DNA from: a virus
Length of the DNA: 25,437 nt
Direction: 5' to 3' (one strand)
IMG/VR virus record: IMGVR_UViG_3300009159_000286
Coordinates: 1 to 25,437 of that record
The translations under genes were made by a program, and so were the position numbers. Each line of letters begins with the position of its first letter. Within the stretch, counting starts at the first letter, position 1. Positions 3,026 to 21,925 of the stretch are shown in pieces. The notes under the pieces are model-generated. The model searched no databases, was not told where the DNA came from, and was given only the letters and a program-made list of their open reading frames with translations.

Positions 3026-3928
3026 CTATTGTCCGTAGTTAGCGTCAGGGATATTCTCAAAGCCAATTAAGACTGATCCTGGTACTGGAGCAAAGCTTAA
3101 TGTAGCTGATCCAGAATCGTTAGCCTTAGCAAAGCTTAATTGTTGTAAGTAATCTCTTGTAAATGCTGTTGCGTCAAAACCTTTAATCTCAAAGTATTTC
3201 TTTTTGAGTGCTGTAACCATTAAACGATCAGGGAATATACAAGTATCTGAATCGTTTTGGAAAGATGTTTCTGGTACGCCTGCGGCTGTTGTAGCCCATG
3301 CGTTACTCATGTATTCAAAACCTAAATATTCACTTGTATTCATTGCAGGCCATACTTGGAAGTATCCGCCTAAGATTCTGTAACGGATTCTAGGGCCTGT
3401 TGAAATATAGCTAGACTTTAAGAACTGCCATTGTTGCGCACTTGTAGGGCCTAACATTTCCCAGCGTTTAGACTTGTCGTAATGTGTACGATCTACTTGT
3501 CTATCCCAATCGCTAGGTAATGGGTATTTAGCTTGTGAAAAATAAAGTGTATATACACCGCTTGTAGTTGCGGCTTGTGATAATGTAAGTGAATTAGTGC
3601 CTGTTACGGTATTAACATAAGTATCTTGATTGATACCTGTGCCTGTTACGATATATAGGTTACTTAACCCTGTGGTTGATTCTACAGTTGTTACATTGAC
3701 AGAATTAGCCACAAGGGTACAAGTAAGTGTTGTATAGACTGTATAAAAACGGTATTCTTTGTCTAATGCTTCCCAGTTATGATCTCTTTGAATCTCATAT
3801 CCTACTGAGTTTATAAGAGAATAAATTTGAACAACATCTGCAGATGTATTACCTACAACTTGCGTAGGCTGAGTTAAACCCATTTCACCTGTAGCTTGCT
3901 GAACGAGTTGCAATAGAGTTGATGCCAT
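3026..3928 (-). CDS. P22 gp4-like head-tail adaptor / tail accessory protein (probable)
   Basis: A 300-aa protein. The first 65 residues look helical and carry the pattern seen in podophage adaptor proteins: LLQLVQQATGEMGL, later QIYSLINSVGYEIQRDHNWEAL. A beta-rich Thr/Val insert follows at about residues 70-135. The last part has YPLPSDWDRQVDRTHYD and IRYRILGGYFQVWP, typical of this family. It would extend the portal ring after packaging and form the platform for the tail hub. The gene order coat, decoration, 200-aa protein, adaptor, 134-aa protein, gp10-like protein supports the role. The resemblance to known adaptors is general, so I hold it as probable. Confidence 0.65.
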   Translation of the reverse strand: MASTLLQLVQQATGEMGLTQPTQVVGNTSADVVQIYSLINSVGYEIQRDHNWEALDKEYRFYTVYTTLTCTLVANSVNVTTVESTTGLSNLYIVTGTGINQDTYVNTVTGTNSLTLSQAATTSGVYTLYFSQAKYPLPSDWDRQVDRTHYDKSKRWEMLGPTSAQQWQFLKSSYISTGPRIRYRILGGYFQVWPAMNTSEYLGFEYMSNAWATTAAGVPETSFQNDSDTCIFPDRLMVTALKKKYFEIKGFDATAFTRDYLQQLSFAKANDSGSATLSFAPVPGSVLIGFENIPDANYGQ

Positions 3929-11117: not shown

Positions 11118-13553
11118 TTATAGTACCACCCATCTTGAGCCACTTGAAACTGTGACTGATTGTCCTGTTGCAACTGTAACTGGCCCTACACTCATAGCAT
11201 TGTTACTAGCTGTAATTGTATAACTACTTGCAATAGATTTTGCATTAACTATTATACCATTAGATGCTACTTGTTGTGGTGCTGTTTGATCGCCTGTAGT
11301 GCTGTTATATGTAAAGCTAGATGATAAGGCTGGTGTTGTCGTTCCTTGACCATAAGGTACATAAGTAGATGTATATGTAACAGATGGTGCTTTACTGTTA
11401 AATGTTGTCCAGTCCGCAGAGCTTAACGCACCACGATTACTTGCTGAAGCAGTAGGTACTTGTAAAGTAATAACCGGTGTGGTTGTTCCTGTAGCTACTG
11501 TAGAGCTTAAATCTGTACCTGTTGTTCCTAATGTTAAAGCAGCAACGCTTGTGACTGTTCCTGAACCTTTACCATTAAAGGTATTCCAGTCAGTAGATGT
11601 TAAGTAGCCATTAGTTGTAGTATTAGCTGCAGCCATAGATATAGCTGGAGTAGCTCCACCGCTAGACACTACTGGAGCAGTACCTGTTACGCTAGTAACT
11701 GTACCTTGTGGATTTGATGCTGTTGTTATGCTTGTTACACGACCATAAGTATCTATAGTAACTACAGGAATTAATGTTGATGATCCTGTAGTACCAGCAG
11801 TTGCCACTCCACTAGCTAAATCAATGACAGGTGTATTTCCGCCTGTGCTTGTAATTCTACCTGTTGTACCTGATACTGATGTTACTGTACCAGATCCTTT
11901 ATTATTAAATGTAGTCCAATCTGTACTTGTAAGGTAGCCAGATACGCTTGTAGTAGCTGCTGGCATAGCAATAGTTGGAGTTGTGCCACCTGTGCTTGTA
12001 ACAGGGCTAGTTGCACCTACAGATGTAACATAAGTACCTGCTGGTTGTTTACCGTTAAACGTATTCCAATCAGTGGAGCTTAAATATCCGTTTGTGCTTG
12101 TTGTAGCTTGGCTAATACTAATTGCTGGAGTAGTACCACCTGATGATGCAATAGGTGATGTTCCTGTAACAGATGTAACTGTTCCTGCAGCAGGTGTTGT
12201 CCATGTAGGAGTTGCACCTGTGCCAGCAGAAGTTAATACTTGACCTGCTGTACCTTGTGAACCATCAAAGCTGGTTGTACCTGTTACACTAAAGTCTACA
12301 AAACTACCATTTTTAGGTGTTGTAGCACCTATAGTCATGTTATCTATTGTACCTACGCTAGTAGGATTTACTTGAATACTTCCTGATCCTGTTGGATTAA
12401 TATGTACATGACCAGTACCAGTAGGACTAATATCTATTTGTGCATTAGAGCCATTTAAGTTTGTAGAAACATTTAATGAAATATTATCACCGCCACCAGC
12501 ACCCATACTCATTTGAGTTGTGCCTGATGCGTTTTTAAGTGCTAAACCACCTGAATTTGTAGCTTGGACAATAGGAGTTGTAACACTTGTAGAAGCTGAA
12601 AGCGTAGTAAATCCAGTAGCCGCACCTGTATCACCGATTGTGACTACAGAGTTTTGCAATAATTTGCCAGTTGTAGTATCGTAACGAGCAATAGCGTTAT
12701 CTGTTGCGCTTGCTGGGCCTACTACATCACCACCTAAAGATGGACTTGAATTTGTAATTACACCAGTTGCATTATCGTAACTAATGCCTGTGCCAGCACT
12801 GACAGAAGTCCTAGCCCTAGCAGTTGTAAAGTATTGGTTTGTGCCTTCAGCAACATCAGTAGTCGTTAATACTACTGTTCCTGTGTATCCGTTTACGCTT
12901 GTAACAGCGTCTGTATTGTCAATCTTTTGCCATGCTGAACCGTTATATACAGCCCAATCGCCTACTAACCAATCTGTAATACCGTTTAAGTTTGTAGAGC
13001 CAGCAACATTGACTACATAATAGTAACCTTTTGTGCCTACAGATGATGTTAGCGTTGGAGTGTTAGTGCTTGCGTTCCATGTACCTTGATAACTTAATGC
13101 ACCTAATACTGCTGCAGGAAGCTGACTAACAGGAACTGTACCGCCACCATCTAATGTAGCAACACCTAAAGCAACACCTTTTTCTGTAGTAGGAATATAT
13201 CCTGTTACAGTTACGCCTGACATTGTGCCACCAGTAATAGCTACTGCATTAGCATTTTGCGTAGACATTGTTCCTAAGCCAGTAATATCTGTGCTAGGTA
13301 CTGTAGAACTTGCTGTAAATGCTGATGTACCGTTACCCTTGACATAACCTGTAAGAGTTGTAGCACCTGTACCACCGTTACTAACACCTAATGTGCCTGT
13401 AAATGTGTGATCGTTATTCCAATCACTTGGCAATACAATATCAGCTAAGACTGTGCCAGGCGGAAAGTTGCCTAATGCAATCTGAGCATCTAAGTCGGTC
13501 TGTGTCCAATCCGATATGGTATCCGTCTTGGCATGCTTAATCGTTATTGCCAT
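11118..13553 (-). CDS. Large tail-fibre protein with repeated stalk modules
   Basis: An 811-aa protein. The N-terminus (residues 1-60) has LPSDWNNDHTFTGTLGVSNGGTGATTL, a standard start of phage fibres seen here in two parts around residues 42-68. The central region has a carbohydrate-binding-like segment (SYQGTWNASTNTPTL; YYYVVNVAGST; WLVGDWAVYNGSAWQKID, residues about 155-215). From about residue 450 to 720 it has five related modules built from GTVTSV and, in four of them, a TSTDWNTFN-type element. The C-terminus is Ser/Thr-rich and ends SGSRWVVL. It starts in a TAATG overlap with the portal gene. The protein is probably the main fibre shaft, with the smaller fibre proteins as additional tips. 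Confidence 0.85.
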   Translation of the reverse strand: MAITIKHAKTDTISDWTQTDLDAQIALGNFPPGTVLADIVLPSDWNNDHTFTGTLGVSNGGTGATTLTGYVKGNGTSAFTASSTVPSTDITGLGTMSTQNANAVAITGGTMSGVTVTGYIPTTEKGVALGVATLDGGGTVPVSQLPAAVLGALSYQGTWNASTNTPTLTSSVGTKGYYYVVNVAGSTNLNGITDWLVGDWAVYNGSAWQKIDNTDAVTSVNGYTGTVVLTTTDVAEGTNQYFTTARARTSVSAGTGISYDNATGVITNSSPSLGGDVVGPASATDNAIARYDTTTGKLLQNSVVTIGDTGAATGFTTLSASTSVTTPIVQATNSGGLALKNASGTTQMSMGAGGGDNISLNVSTNLNGSNAQIDISPTGTGHVHINPTGSGSIQVNPTSVGTIDNMTIGATTPKNGSFVDFSVTGTTSFDGSQGTAGQVLTSAGTGATPTWTTPAAGTVTSVTGTSPIASSGGTTPAISISQATTSTNGYLSSTDWNTFNGKQPAGTYVTSVGATSPVTSTGGTTPTIAMPAATTSVSGYLTSTDWTTFNNKGSGTVTSVSGTTGRITSTGGNTPVIDLASGVATAGTTGSSTLIPVVTIDTYGRVTSITTASNPQGTVTSVTGTAPVVSSGGATPAISMAAANTTTNGYLTSTDWNTFNGKGSGTVTSVAALTLGTTGTDLSSTVATGTTTPVITLQVPTASASNRGALSSADWTTFNSKAPSVTYTSTYVPYGQGTTTPALSSSFTYNSTTGDQTAPQQVASNGIIVNAKSIASSYTITASNNAMSVGPVTVATGQSVTVSSGSRWVVL
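11398..12118 (-). repeat. Four diverged repeats inside the large fibre gene
   Basis: Related stretches of about 60 bases begin near 11398, 11575, 11905 and 12055 on the plus strand (each starting TTAAA or similar, then a core close to GTATTCCAATCAGT). On the coding strand they encode the GYL(T/S)STDW(N/T)TFN element of the fibre stalk. They differ at many third positions, so they are old repeats and not a recent duplication. Such repeats allow the fibre to change length by recombination. Confidence 0.75.
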
Positions 13554-16045: not shown

Positions 16046-17377
16046 TTAGATCCTTCCACCTTGTGTTTTAGGGACTGTATCCCATAATTCGTTTAATGTT
16101 ACTTTTGTTTGGCCTACATGTAATCCTCTAGGCTTATCGTCTTTCTTATCCACCTTAGCTTCTTCTTGCCAACATACAGCTAGGTATCTAAATGCGTCAC
16201 TAGCATGAGATGTCCAATCGTGTTTAGGTTTATCTCTGAATATCTTGCGATCCTCATCCCACTCACGTTGATATTGCTTTAGAGCTTCTATGCCATCAGC
16301 ACAGTTCTCTTTGTCAATCCATACTCTTGGAAACATAAGTCTTGCAGCCTGAATACCATCCATCATAGATAGATTAGTAGTAATCCGCATATTTTTCCAC
16401 TCAAAGTGAGTAGCTAACTGTTCTACAATAGATTTACCACCGGATGCTAAAGTTTTAGCTTTAGCGTCATGTGGCAAATGATGTAGACCAAACTTATAGG
16501 GTTTGGTAAGCACTTGCGCAGCATAGTGAGCTATTTCTTTACCACTTGAAGCATAATAGTCAATGACATGGACTTCACCATGAATGACCTGATAGAACCA
16601 TATAGCAGTATCATCACTATATCCTAGATCCCATACTGTGTGTACAGGGACTTCTTTATCATACTTAACTTCTGTGATTCTGTTTTCTTGTTCGGCTTGG
16701 TATAACTCTCTACCCCATATAGCACCAGGTATAGCAGCATCAAAATCACATTCCATCTCTTGACGCCAGGCATCTTCAGTCATCTCGTTTTTCAGAGAAT
16801 CATACTCGCTAGGCAGAAGTATATTACTTTCTGATGCAGTGATCTTGAGTGCCAACCATTCGCTACTTGTGGTAGCCCTGTTATACACTTCCCAGAATTG
16901 GTTGCGACCTTTAGGTGTGCCAATAATAATAGCTTTACCTTGTCTATCGGCTAACGCTGGGCGTATAACGTAATTCCATACTGACGGTTTCCAGTCACCA
17001 TACTCATCAGCGACTAACAGATCAAAGAATAATCCACGCAAACTATCTGCATTGTCTGCACCAAATAATTGTATTCTTGCGCCATGCGCAAAATCTATAC
17101 GCATTTCTGATTCATTTATTGTAGTGCCTTGTATAGACCTTGAAAAATATTTGAAATAATCCCAGCTAACTGATTTAGCTTGTCTATAAAAAGGCGCAAT
17201 ATAACCACCACGAAAGTCTGTGCGTTCTGTCATAAGTGCTTCTCTTATGAGATGATTTACACAAGCTACTGTTTTACCTGCTCTACGGTGAGCAACTACT
17301 ACAGCCCATCTTTTGTTTGTATCGTGTAATGGGTAGAAGGCTTCTCTGGGAGAATAAGGTATTACTATTTCTTCCAT
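16046..17377 (-). CDS. terL: Terminase large subunit (packaging ATPase and nuclease)
   Basis: A 443-aa protein with both terminase domains. The ATPase part has Walker A AHRRAGKT (residues 29-36), Walker B FFDLLVADEY (117-126, with D124 and E125) and the coupling motif IIGTPKG (151-157). The RNase-H-like nuclease part has VWDLGYSDDTAIWF (D250), IDYY (D273), LPHDAKAK (D304) and HASDAFRYL (D394), giving the acidic metal-binding residues. It cuts the concatemer and drives DNA into the prohead through the portal. The start overlaps the terS-like gene by 13 bases. No key residue is missing, so it should be active. Confidence 0.96.
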   Translation of the reverse strand: MEEIVIPYSPREAFYPLHDTNKRWAVVVAHRRAGKTVACVNHLIREALMTERTDFRGGYIAPFYRQAKSVSWDYFKYFSRSIQGTTINESEMRIDFAHGARIQLFGADNADSLRGLFFDLLVADEYGDWKPSVWNYVIRPALADRQGKAIIIGTPKGRNQFWEVYNRATTSSEWLALKITASESNILLPSEYDSLKNEMTEDAWRQEMECDFDAAIPGAIWGRELYQAEQENRITEVKYDKEVPVHTVWDLGYSDDTAIWFYQVIHGEVHVIDYYASSGKEIAHYAAQVLTKPYKFGLHHLPHDAKAKTLASGGKSIVEQLATHFEWKNMRITTNLSMMDGIQAARLMFPRVWIDKENCADGIEALKQYQREWDEDRKIFRDKPKHDWTSHASDAFRYLAVCWQEEAKVDKKDDKPRGLHVGQTKVTLNELWDTVPKTQGGRI

Positions 17378-18588: not shown

Positions 18589-18750
18589 TTATTTACTCAT
18601 TAAAGCTTGCGCTAGTTTATGGGGATCTTTCTTTACGCCTTCTGCTGCTAATTTTTTAGCTGTAGCTTGTGGGATGCCTACTTTTTTAGCAATAGCAGGA
18701 TTATGCTCTGCGGCTCTAAAAAGCTTATTCTGTTTGGCTGAGTAAGGCAT
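18589..18750 (-). CDS. Small basic phage protein (53 aa)
   Basis: The frame is open from 18858, but the ATG at 18750 gives the coherent 53-aa protein MPYSAKQNKLFRAAEHNPAI, followed by AKKVGIPQATAKKLAAEGVK and a Lys/Ala-rich end. The core 'QNKLFRAAEHNPAIAKKVG' followed by a second helix is a known short motif in phage proteins, sometimes fused to larger genes. It is basic and could bind DNA or RNA. It overlaps the zinc-ribbon gene by 26 bases in another frame. Confidence 0.7.
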   Translation of the reverse strand: MPYSAKQNKLFRAAEHNPAIAKKVGIPQATAKKLAAEGVKKDPHKLAQALMSK

Positions 18751-18886
18751 CTTGTTCTTTCTGAAGTAATTTGGGTATATCTGTAGACTTTTTAGTTGTA
18801 TCACCATCTCTAATACATTCAGGGCAAGTTGGATAGCCGGTATATTCATAGACATCACCGCAATCCTGGCATACTGTAATTTTCAC
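18725..18886 (-). CDS. Small zinc-ribbon protein (53 aa), first gene of the late operon
   Basis: The preferred start is the GTG at 18886, with AGGAA five to six bases before it; an upstream GTG at 18922 would lie inside the terminator hairpin and is rejected. The protein has two CxxC pairs, C6-C9 and C21-C24 (VCQDCGD and CPECIRD), so it should bind one zinc ion, followed by a charged helix. Small zinc ribbons bind nucleic acid or protein. In Mu the zinc-finger protein Com activates mom translation; the fold type is comparable, but this gene is far from the Mom-like gene, so no link is claimed. Confidence 0.7.
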   Translation of the reverse strand: MKITVCQDCGDVYEYTGYPTCPECIRDGDTTKKSTDIPKLLQKEQDALLSQTE

Positions 18887-18904
18887 TTGGTTTCCTGAGT
18901 TATA

Positions 18905-18937
18905 AATATAAAAAAAGCCCACGTTTTAAGTGAGCTT
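18905..18937 (-). terminator. Strong rho-independent terminator at the start of the late operon
   Basis: On the minus strand AAGCTCAC pairs with GTGGGCTT (8 bp, one G-T pair) around the 7-base loop TTAAAAC, followed by TTTTTATATTTATA. This is a classical intrinsic terminator. It stops leftward transcripts from the replication genes and also those from the promoter just upstream, before they reach the zinc-ribbon gene and the late operon. Confidence 0.88.
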
Positions 18938-18967
18938 ATGTGAAAGTAATAGATACAATTCTCCCAC

Positions 18968-19003
18968 AACTGCGATTATACCAAAACTGACTATGCTTGT
19001 GTA
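18968..19003 (-). promoter_or_regulatory. Predicted late promoter (extended -10), pointing into the late operon
   Basis: On the minus strand a perfect -10 box TATAAT (18980-18975) is preceded by TGG, an extended -10 element, and a -35-like TACACA (19003-18998, four of six consensus bases) at a 17-base spacing. The predicted start is near 18968, only about 30 bases before the terminator hairpin. It lies in the gap after the Q-like gene. Confidence 0.75.
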
Positions 19004-19010
19004 TTATATT

Positions 19011-19343
19011 TTAGGCATTTATACGTCTGCCACCAATGGTTAAAAGATTGTCCATAGCAAGCTCTAACTTAAATTCATAAGCAAATGGCTTTCTAGTCTT
19101 TAAAAAGCGTGTGTAAATAGCTTCTTGTTGTTCCTTGGGTAGTGAATGAATGATACTGTCTATAGTATGTACATTTTTTAAGTCTTGAGCTGACACCATA
19201 TCTTCAAAAGCATCTGCTGTTGATTCTCCCCCTGAACTAAATCCTATTGCTTTTTTTGGAAAACCTAGCTTATGGCTATCATGTGCTTTCATATATAAAG
19301 CCCAATCCTCACATATACACAATAAGCGATCCATTGTTATCAT
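19011..19343 (-). CDS. Q-like late antiterminator (probable)
   Basis: A 110-aa protein resembling the phage antiterminator Q group of short proteins. It has W14 in an N-terminal helix, the segment HKLGFPKKAIGFSSGGEST (residues 24-42), DAFEDMVSAQD, then IIHSLPKEQQEAIYTRFL (64-81), a sigma-region-4-like helix pattern, and a basic end GGRRINA. Q proteins bind DNA and RNA polymerase near the late promoter and let it pass terminators. The gene is the last of the minus early operon and stands directly before a strong promoter and terminator, just where Q stands in lambda. The ATG at 19343 overlaps the previous stop by ATGA and has AAGGTG upstream. The family call is from pattern memory. Confidence 0.7.
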   Translation of the reverse strand: MITMDRLLCICEDWALYMKAHDSHKLGFPKKAIGFSSGGESTADAFEDMVSAQDLKNVHTIDSIIHSLPKEQQEAIYTRFLKTRKPFAYEFKLELAMDNLLTIGGRRINA

Positions 19344-20626: not shown

Positions 20627-20913
20627 TTTACCTCCAAATGGTTGTTAGTGAATAACCATCCTATAGTTTTTCTGTGCGCTTCTTCCCATGCTGCTATTCT
20701 ATCATGTTTATCTAATGATTTGTCATTATCTATCATGTGGTGGCATTGGTGGCATAAGAACGCTATACGGTGATCGTGGGCTTTTATACCTGTACCTTTA
20801 CCATCTCTTAGTTGATTACTATGTGCGGCCACTACAGTTCCGTCTTGCATAGAACACATCATACATGGTGCGCCATCTGCTAACTTTAATAGTTTAGGGT
20901 TTCTGTAATTCAT
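20623..20913 (-). CDS. YbcO-like (DUF1364) HNH-type nuclease
   Basis: A 96-aa protein with the metal-binding pattern of the YbcO/DUF1364 family: C17 and C20 (APCMMC), H31 in AAHSNQ, then GKGTGIKAHDHRIAFLC (residues 38-54) and CHQCHHMID (C54, C57, H58, H59, D62). Such proteins have an HNH-like fold and are found in the nin region of lambdoid phages, where they are thought to process recombination or replication intermediates. The family call is good; activity is inferred. It stands between the Mom-like gene and the small membrane peptide. Confidence 0.85.
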   Translation of the reverse strand: MNYRNPKLLKLADGAPCMMCSMQDGTVVAAHSNQLRDGKGTGIKAHDHRIAFLCHQCHHMIDNDKSLDKHDRIAAWEEAHRKTIGWLFTNNHLEVK

Positions 20914-21569
20914 GCAAACATCACTTGTTGTGTTTGAACAACACCACCAGCGTCATATCTTTTACTTTCGCCTTTTGGGTATTTATTAATAATTGGATAA
21001 GATAATAATTCTAACATTTGTTTTTTTTGTTGTTTGTTGCCACAAAAATATATGTATCTATGTTTTGGTTTTGCTTTAACTATTTCTATATTGTTTTCTT
21101 TAGCCCATTCTTTAGGTTTTGTTATACCCCTTGATGTTAAAGTTCTTGCATGTGTTTTTTTACCATTAACAATATATTCATCATCATGTGCAGTTACTGC
21201 ACCTGTATATAAAAAATTAGTAGATTGATAAACATAACCAATATGGCCTTGACCACCATCAGCATAAGAAACAACTGCCATTGGTTTTGGCAACATAGCT
21301 AAACTTCTACCAACAATAAAAGAAGCTGCGTTTTTAGTTTTGGTTTCTATACACAATCTATTTAATTCTAAAATTTTATCTTCCCATCCTGCGCCAAGCA
21401 TATGTTTTTGAACTTGTGGTGTTGGTGTTGGGCCATAAGTAACTACACCTACTAATGTGTCATTTTCATACAATCCAAAAGCATATCTTACTATTGGCAT
21501 ACGTTTAGCATAATGCTTTTCTAAAAGCCATGGTTTTGTTTCTTCGCTTTTAATAGGCATTACATACAT
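20910..21569 (-). CDS. mom: Mom-like DNA adenine modification protein
   Basis: The frame is open from 21605, but the ATG at 21569 overlaps the ninB stop as TAATG and gives 219 aa, near the length of Mu Mom. It has HYAKRMPIVRYAFGLYEN (H19, Y20), ILELNRLCI, ASFIVGRSLAMLPKP, VVSYADGGQGHIGYVYQSTN (residues 99-118) and KHRYIYFCGN, matching the GNAT-related Mom family. Mom changes adenine to N6-carbamoylmethyladenine and shields phage DNA from restriction. H19/Y20 and D104/Y114 fit the conserved residues of that family as I remember them. It would protect packaged or replicating DNA. No adjacent Com-like regulator is present. Confidence 0.87.
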   Translation of the reverse strand: MYVMPIKSEETKPWLLEKHYAKRMPIVRYAFGLYENDTLVGVVTYGPTPTPQVQKHMLGAGWEDKILELNRLCIETKTKNAASFIVGRSLAMLPKPMAVVSYADGGQGHIGYVYQSTNFLYTGAVTAHDDEYIVNGKKTHARTLTSRGITKPKEWAKENNIEIVKAKPKHRYIYFCGNKQQKKQMLELLSYPIINKYPKGESKRYDAGGVVQTQQVMFA

Positions 21570-21925
21570 TATAAATCCCATCCCCATCCCATAGTTTGCG
21601 CCCATATTTCTATTTGGTGTTGATATTCTGACATTTCACTTGTAGTAAGTTTGGTAGTAGATTTGATAACTTCACATGGAAAGCCACATATTTCTGTTTG
21701 TGATCTAAGTAACCGGTAAGACATAAGTTCGTGCATGTTTTGTTTGTCTATGCCTAAATGATTACCAATGCTTGTATAAAGCTCCCATAACCTTTCGTTT
21801 TGCTCTAAACTACGACTTGCTTTAGCTTCTACAACTGTTACACGCCATCTTTTAGTCCAATCAAGTGATCTTAATTTTATAATCAGATTTTCTAGGTTGC
21901 TTTCTACTAAATTCCATTTCAGCAT
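21569..21925 (-). CDS. ninB: NinB-like recombination protein
   Basis: A 118-aa protein with the NinB pattern: KRWRVTVVEAKASRSLEQNE (residues 25-44), RLWELYTSIGNHLG, MHELMSYRLL, then a C-terminal helix with SEMSEYQHQIEIWAQTMGW. In lambda, NinB (Orf) assists RecA-type recombination by acting on single-stranded-DNA-binding-protein-coated DNA. The size is a little below lambda NinB (146 aa). The ATG is preceded by AAAGGATGGG; it lies inside the end of the 56-aa gene. It is followed by the Mom-like gene in TAATG overlap. Confidence 0.85.
   Translation of the reverse strand: MLKWNLVESNLENLIIKLRSLDWTKRWRVTVVEAKASRSLEQNERLWELYTSIGNHLGIDKQNMHELMSYRLLRSQTEICGFPCEVIKSTTKLTTSEMSEYQHQIEIWAQTMGWGWDL

Follow-up and report, generated by a model that had tools for sequence, protein, structure and literature searches.

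The sequence analysed (IMG/VR record IMGVR_UViG_3300009159_000286, positions 1 to 25,437) comes from a freshwater phage, and the whole stretch of 25,437 nucleotides is referred to here as the window. On its minus strand a 110-aa open reading frame is followed by an extended -10 promoter, an intrinsic terminator and a late gene with a GTG start, an order that had been claimed in a sequence-only reading and that was confirmed by the window sequence and its open reading frames. The features, with the basis of each assignment in brackets, were as follows.

19011..19343, minus strand: Q-like gene of 110 aa, proposed late antiterminator (open reading frame, homologue annotations, profile similarity and AF2 model)
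18998..19003, minus strand: -35 element TACACA (sequence)
18975..18983, minus strand: extended -10 element, TGG TATAAT, with TATAAT at 18980-18975 (sequence and promoter scoring)
18910..18968, minus strand: leader RNA of about 59 nt (start near 18968 read from the -10 element; predicted ends)
18951..18965, minus strand: conserved pause-like motif GGGAGAATTGTATCT (nG-N8-YRYCY; G-11 G-10 ... Y-1), predicted pause RNA about 14 nt (lineage comparison)
18958..18963, minus strand: -10-like hexamer GAGAAT, candidate sigma-dependent pause element at about +6 to +11 (assigned by inference)
18939..18968, minus strand: leader hairpin 1, GTGGGAG...CTTTCAC (folding and covariation)
18915..18937, minus strand: intrinsic terminator stem-loop AAGCTCAC-TTAAAAC-GTGGGCTT (terminator scan and fold; T run 18916-18910)
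18725..18886, minus strand: first late gene, GTG start at 18886, encoding a 53-aa CxxC...CxxC protein (open reading frame and relatives)
18589..18750, minus strand: second late gene, 53 aa, phrog_16759 (PHROG match)
16046..17377, minus strand: terminase large subunit, late operon (open reading frame and family match)

TACACA and TATAAT are separated by a spacer of 17 nt and TGG directly precedes TATAAT. With a start near 18968 the terminator stem begins after 31 nt, and it consists of 8 bp, four of them G-C, followed by seven T (18916-18910); the terminator is moderate and not strong as had been claimed. The GTG at 18886 is preceded by AGGA, and in relatives the same protein starts at the same place with ATG. 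Upstream of the Q-like gene lie NinB-like and YbcO-like genes, forming a nin-like block with the Q-like gene at its end, and this neighbourhood is comparable to the NinB/YbcO-type nin-Q blocks of DLP12 and P22. A gene for a Mom-family DNA modification protein (20910-21605, minus strand; Pfam E 7.9e-39) was also found among the early genes, beside the YbcO-like nuclease gene.

The 110-aa protein has close homologues at 42 viral loci, and more distant ones, at about 24-72% identity, were obtained by profile search and via the terminase. One scan of IMG/VR gave 548 stretches matching the Q-like family; GTDB genomes yielded no relative. A homologue is present in two named phage genomes, where it already has an annotation: phage antitermination protein Q in MW202481 (61% identity) and antitermination-like in Methylophilales phage Venkman (60%). 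In Venkman (L367; Q region examined, 12602-13352) the late genes lie on the opposite (minus) strand and no cassette of promoter and terminator was found, possibly because it was lost at the end of the record. In phages with a related terminase (pelagiphages, P26218), the regions examined lacked both Q and the cassette.

Taken singly, the promoter and terminator matches in the window were at the level expected by chance when compared with shuffled sequence (10 promoters found and 13.0 expected; 4 terminators found and 2.4 expected), and the case for the cassette therefore rests on comparison between relatives. A strict extended -10 promoter followed by an intrinsic terminator was present within 150 nt after 65 of 131 distinct Q homologues, with 0.0018 expected per locus as estimated from the remainder of the same loci on both strands, and several loci that failed the strict rule show the cassette by eye. 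At about 16 loci a gene for a methyltransferase or another protein is inserted after Q, and there a single cassette was found behind the insert on the same strand. The position directly behind the Q stop codon is a recurrent insertion point, occupied by genes for DNA methyltransferase-like or other products in L010, L015, L034, L088, L165, L166, L191 and others. The association also held one-to-one in the opposite direction: when IMG/VR was scanned with the leader motif of two lineages, 66 contigs were obtained with one match each, and Q was located upstream on the same strand in all 53 contigs that had at least 1.3 kb of upstream sequence. Judged by these comparisons, the arrangement of Q, promoter and terminator is far beyond chance, unlike its single matches. 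No minus-strand promoter in the window scores higher than this one, which shares the top score, and the stretch from the terminator to the large terminase gene contains none of the 25 best sites.

The 110-aa protein alone matched no Pfam or PHROG model, and single-sequence searches of Pfam, PHROG, NCBIfam and PDB gave nothing usable. An HMM comparison with the phage Q families, proposed in the sequence-only reading as a check, gave a divided result, with a profile similarity to the phage 21 Q (21Q) family PF06530 (Phage_antitermQ) above that of 150 shuffles but no Q family cut-off reached. For PF06530 itself there was no match for the window protein, and the best relative scored 16.4 bits against a cut-off of 26; one homologue matched at E 0.0086, collinearly and under the family cut-off. 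That PF06530 is the 21Q family is indicated by its E. coli member QuuD, which finds the 21Q structures at 7.6e-7. When the profile of the window family was aligned with nine PF06530 proteins using hhalign, the score was 28.8 over 64 columns (p 3.9e-4; probability 35.6%, which is weak), compared with a maximum of 24.8 in 150 column shuffles and 11.7 for the reversed profile. PF03589, the lambda-type Q family, was matched by gp23 of P22 and not by the window protein or its relatives, and members of the window family matched sigma region 4 models weakly.

The AF2 model (pLDDT 80) consists of a helix at residues 4-21, a flexible conserved loop at 22-41, a short helix and a C-terminal bundle. The best solved neighbours of the bundle (residues 56-110) were sigma region 4 domains, at weak scores (Z up to 5.0). 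Foldseek returned no significant solved structure from PDB, and 21Q was not among the structures listed, an absence that excludes nothing; among viral models only uncharacterised relatives were returned. In 21Q a helix is followed by a ring-forming part and a sigma-region-4-like body (PMC6606751), and the order of elements in the AF2 model fits this order. The profile similarity is weak but significant, and it suggests that the 110-aa protein is Q-like and remotely related to 21Q while falling outside PF06530.

Given this protein and the conserved arrangement behind it, the late genes are very probably controlled by a Q-type switch in which the 110-aa protein would act as antiterminator. The sequence-only reading had proposed a lambda-like switch, and this is supported by the gene order, by the conservation of promoter and terminator in divergent relatives, by the profile similarity to the 21Q family and by the lack of another strong promoter. 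A plain copy of lambda pR' is not supported, given that lineage P has no conserved QBE in the spacer and that its conserved element is the transcribed leader. The poor -35 element in the window lineage and the weak likeness of the C-terminal half to sigma region 4 would also fit a protein that activates the promoter directly, with a terminator that is leaky or merely ends early transcription, but a terminator separates the promoter from its genes in nearly every readable lineage and the consensus -35 and extended -10 elements of most lineages need no activator, so that we regard direct activation as very improbable. It is also improbable, if slightly less so, that promoter, leader and terminator form a stand-alone small RNA gene while the late genes are expressed otherwise and the Q-like protein acts elsewhere. 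Such a gene would have a complete promoter and terminator and a conserved leader fold, and in many relatives an exposed TCTCC loop resembles an anti-Shine-Dalgarno seed; this element is missing in the window lineage, and the cassette is located downstream of Q and directly before the late genes, even behind inserted genes, while the region from the cassette to the large terminase has no further strong promoter. A small RNA role and a Q-type switch could coexist.

The characterised factors of this kind that were compared here, lambda Q, 21Q, AlpA and probably GafZ, use a binding element between -35 and -10 (PMC6606751, PMC9371919, PMC11150451). In lineage P no conserved element was found at this position, and in the window lineage (lineage A) its absence is less clear. 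Conservation in lineage P was 0.72 bits per position in the spacer interior and 1.73 in the first 32 motif bases. Among 252 lineage P pairs with a Q identity of at least 95%, the mean identity was 0.52 for the spacer, down to 0.08, and 0.95 for the leader start; in the extreme case the Q proteins were 100% identical, the spacers shared 1 of 13 bases and the leader starts were 97% identical. The contrast was smaller in lineage A (1.19 bits for the spacer and 1.58 for the leader), where the spacer is partly conserved and ACACAAGCA is conserved around -35. Since identical Q proteins are found with unrelated spacers and with near-identical first transcribed bases that carry a pause-like motif and a hairpin, it seems to be the transcribed leader, and not an element of the -35/-10 spacer, that carries the loading signal.

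Clustering of the leaders gave 19 lineages. The motif nG-N8-Y[G/A]YCY, starting at +3 to +8, was present in 18 of these (1.5 expected) and the strict form GG-N8-YGYCY in 12 (0.2 expected); because the motif was defined after viewing the same leaders this excess is descriptive, and its weight lies in the recurrence in lineages that share little other identity. The elemental pause signal is G-10, Y-1, G+1 (PMC12288461), and the leader motif matches it. A match of this type occurs in lambda pR' at +16, the site at which sigma-dependent pausing has been reported (PMC7876045). A -10-like hexamer lies inside the motif, with the consensus GATAAT in most close relatives and GAGAAT in the window; its A2 and T6 are each kept in 14 of 18 lineages and the key T is missing in some. 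The two elements predict different pause positions, about +14 for the G-10/Y-1/G+1 motif and about +21 for the hexamer.

The leader also has a strand-specific potential to fold as RNA. For the first 38 nt of 78 leaders the mean z-score was -1.49 for the sense strand and -0.74 for the antisense strand. In the 29 P/H leaders 92.5% of cells pair, and the covariation score was 0.353; shuffles gave 0.170 and sliding gave no more than 0.077. Several pairs show compensatory changes, among them U-A/C-G, G-C/A-U, C-G/A-U and A-U/C-G, although much of this covariation tracks the P/H split and thus reflects few independent events. In the lineage A hairpin 97.8% of cells pair, largely through changes that tolerate G-U. 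A leader that functions purely as DNA, as a palindromic protein site, is less likely, since folding is better for the sense strand and G-U often preserves the pairs. In L018 (about 3310-3440), and also in L058, about 120 nt without any Rfam match are inserted between hairpin and terminator, which indicates that the spacing between the two is uncritical. At the leader site nothing reached the Rfam gathering score in the window or in the relatives searched, and a weak Trp_leader match was not accepted (27.1 bits, cut-off 41). Most leader lineages outside the window lineage carry a TCTCC(G) element (e.g. L093, L224, L177, L190 and L347) between leader hairpin 1 and the terminator or within the terminator loop; it often forms a hairpin loop with compensatory stem changes and resembles an anti-Shine-Dalgarno sequence or a small-RNA seed.

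It is possible, though less likely than not, that the Q-like antiterminator is loaded through the first 15-35 transcribed bases, by a pause site and a nascent RNA hairpin, and not through a DNA element in the spacer. A different reading of the Q-type switch, in which the protein loads at a conventional promoter element and the hairpin serves solely to shield the long late mRNA at its 5' end, would agree with a hairpin that begins within the first bases of the transcript and with the partial conservation of the -35/spacer region in the window lineage. It is rather unlikely given the unrelated spacers alongside identical Q proteins and the near-invariant sequence inside the hairpin, which goes beyond what pairing needs. 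In the probable Q-type switch as a whole, RNA polymerase would initiate at the extended -10 promoter that follows the Q-like gene and pause within the first 14-22 transcribed bases. Without the 110-aa protein, transcription would end at the terminator after about 59 nt. Once the early 110-aa protein had accumulated it would join the promoter-proximal paused polymerase, possibly with its sigma-region-4-like body and with the flexible loop forming a ring at the RNA exit channel as in 21Q, and the loaded polymerase would then pass the leader terminator, and those further on, to transcribe the terminase and virion genes.

The leader had been described as unusually short, but about 59 nt is ordinary. 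Counted from +1 through the T run of the terminator, the leader has about 60 nt in P22 and about 45 nt in SfI (a 21-type Q with TGAGCA repeats), and the target terminator of AlpA begins at +54 (PMC7969949). Constant production of the window leader as a stable RNA was a further prediction of the sequence-only reading. Phage 21 Q/pR'/tR' (PF06530; 6jnx, 6p18) resembles the present system in its small Q-like protein with a helix, a flexible loop and, as predicted for the window protein, a sigma-region-4-like part, encoded by an early gene directly before pR', and in a very short leader that ends at a terminator with the late genes behind it. It differs in that the binding site of 21Q is a pair of TGAGCA direct repeats located between -35 and -10 (PMC6606751), whereas the lineage P spacer is unconserved even between identical Q proteins, and in that the window protein scores under the PF06530 cut-off. 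The systems of lambda and P22 have the same gene order and logic, and the P22 leader is of similar length, but there is no detectable protein similarity to PF03589, and lambda has a QBE in the spacer and a much longer leader. A resemblance of the leader start to lambda or P22 pR' in sequence was dropped, as 13/200 and 11/200 shuffles, respectively, were as good.

The processive antiterminator AlpA of Pseudomonas aeruginosa has a similar site with a promoter, a -10-like element and a terminator from +54, but its element GGGACG sits in the spacer (PMC9371919), and the likeness concerns the layout of the site. A small leader hairpin before an intrinsic terminator also directs antitermination by LoaP (dfn hairpin) and in HK022 put RNA (PMC12691694; PMC9378689). 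LoaP is a NusG paralogue, whereas the 110-aa protein has no match to NusG, and put needs no phage protein; the RNA recognition proposed here is putative.

The kind of switch is already known; what appears to be new, from comparison of the sequences, is the Q-like family and a conserved element that would be transcribed and not located in the promoter spacer. The combination of the same protein, unrelated spacers and the same transcribed start represents a natural swap experiment, and loading of a Q-like factor by a pause and an RNA element alone is therefore directly testable. If true, loading at the leader would combine the early loading of Q-type factors with the leader-RNA recognition known from N/nut, put and LoaP. 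The results also define a Q-like family of aquatic podoviruses that is large and has had no model so far, and whose late promoter should be predictable from sequence.

Two minor observations were made in the relatives. In L016, L018 and L038 the codon aligned to the window GTG is ATT, with GGAG a few bases upstream, possibly representing a rare ATT start. In another related virus (L072, 1171-1252) an int-alpA RNA (RF02996) was found above the gathering score.
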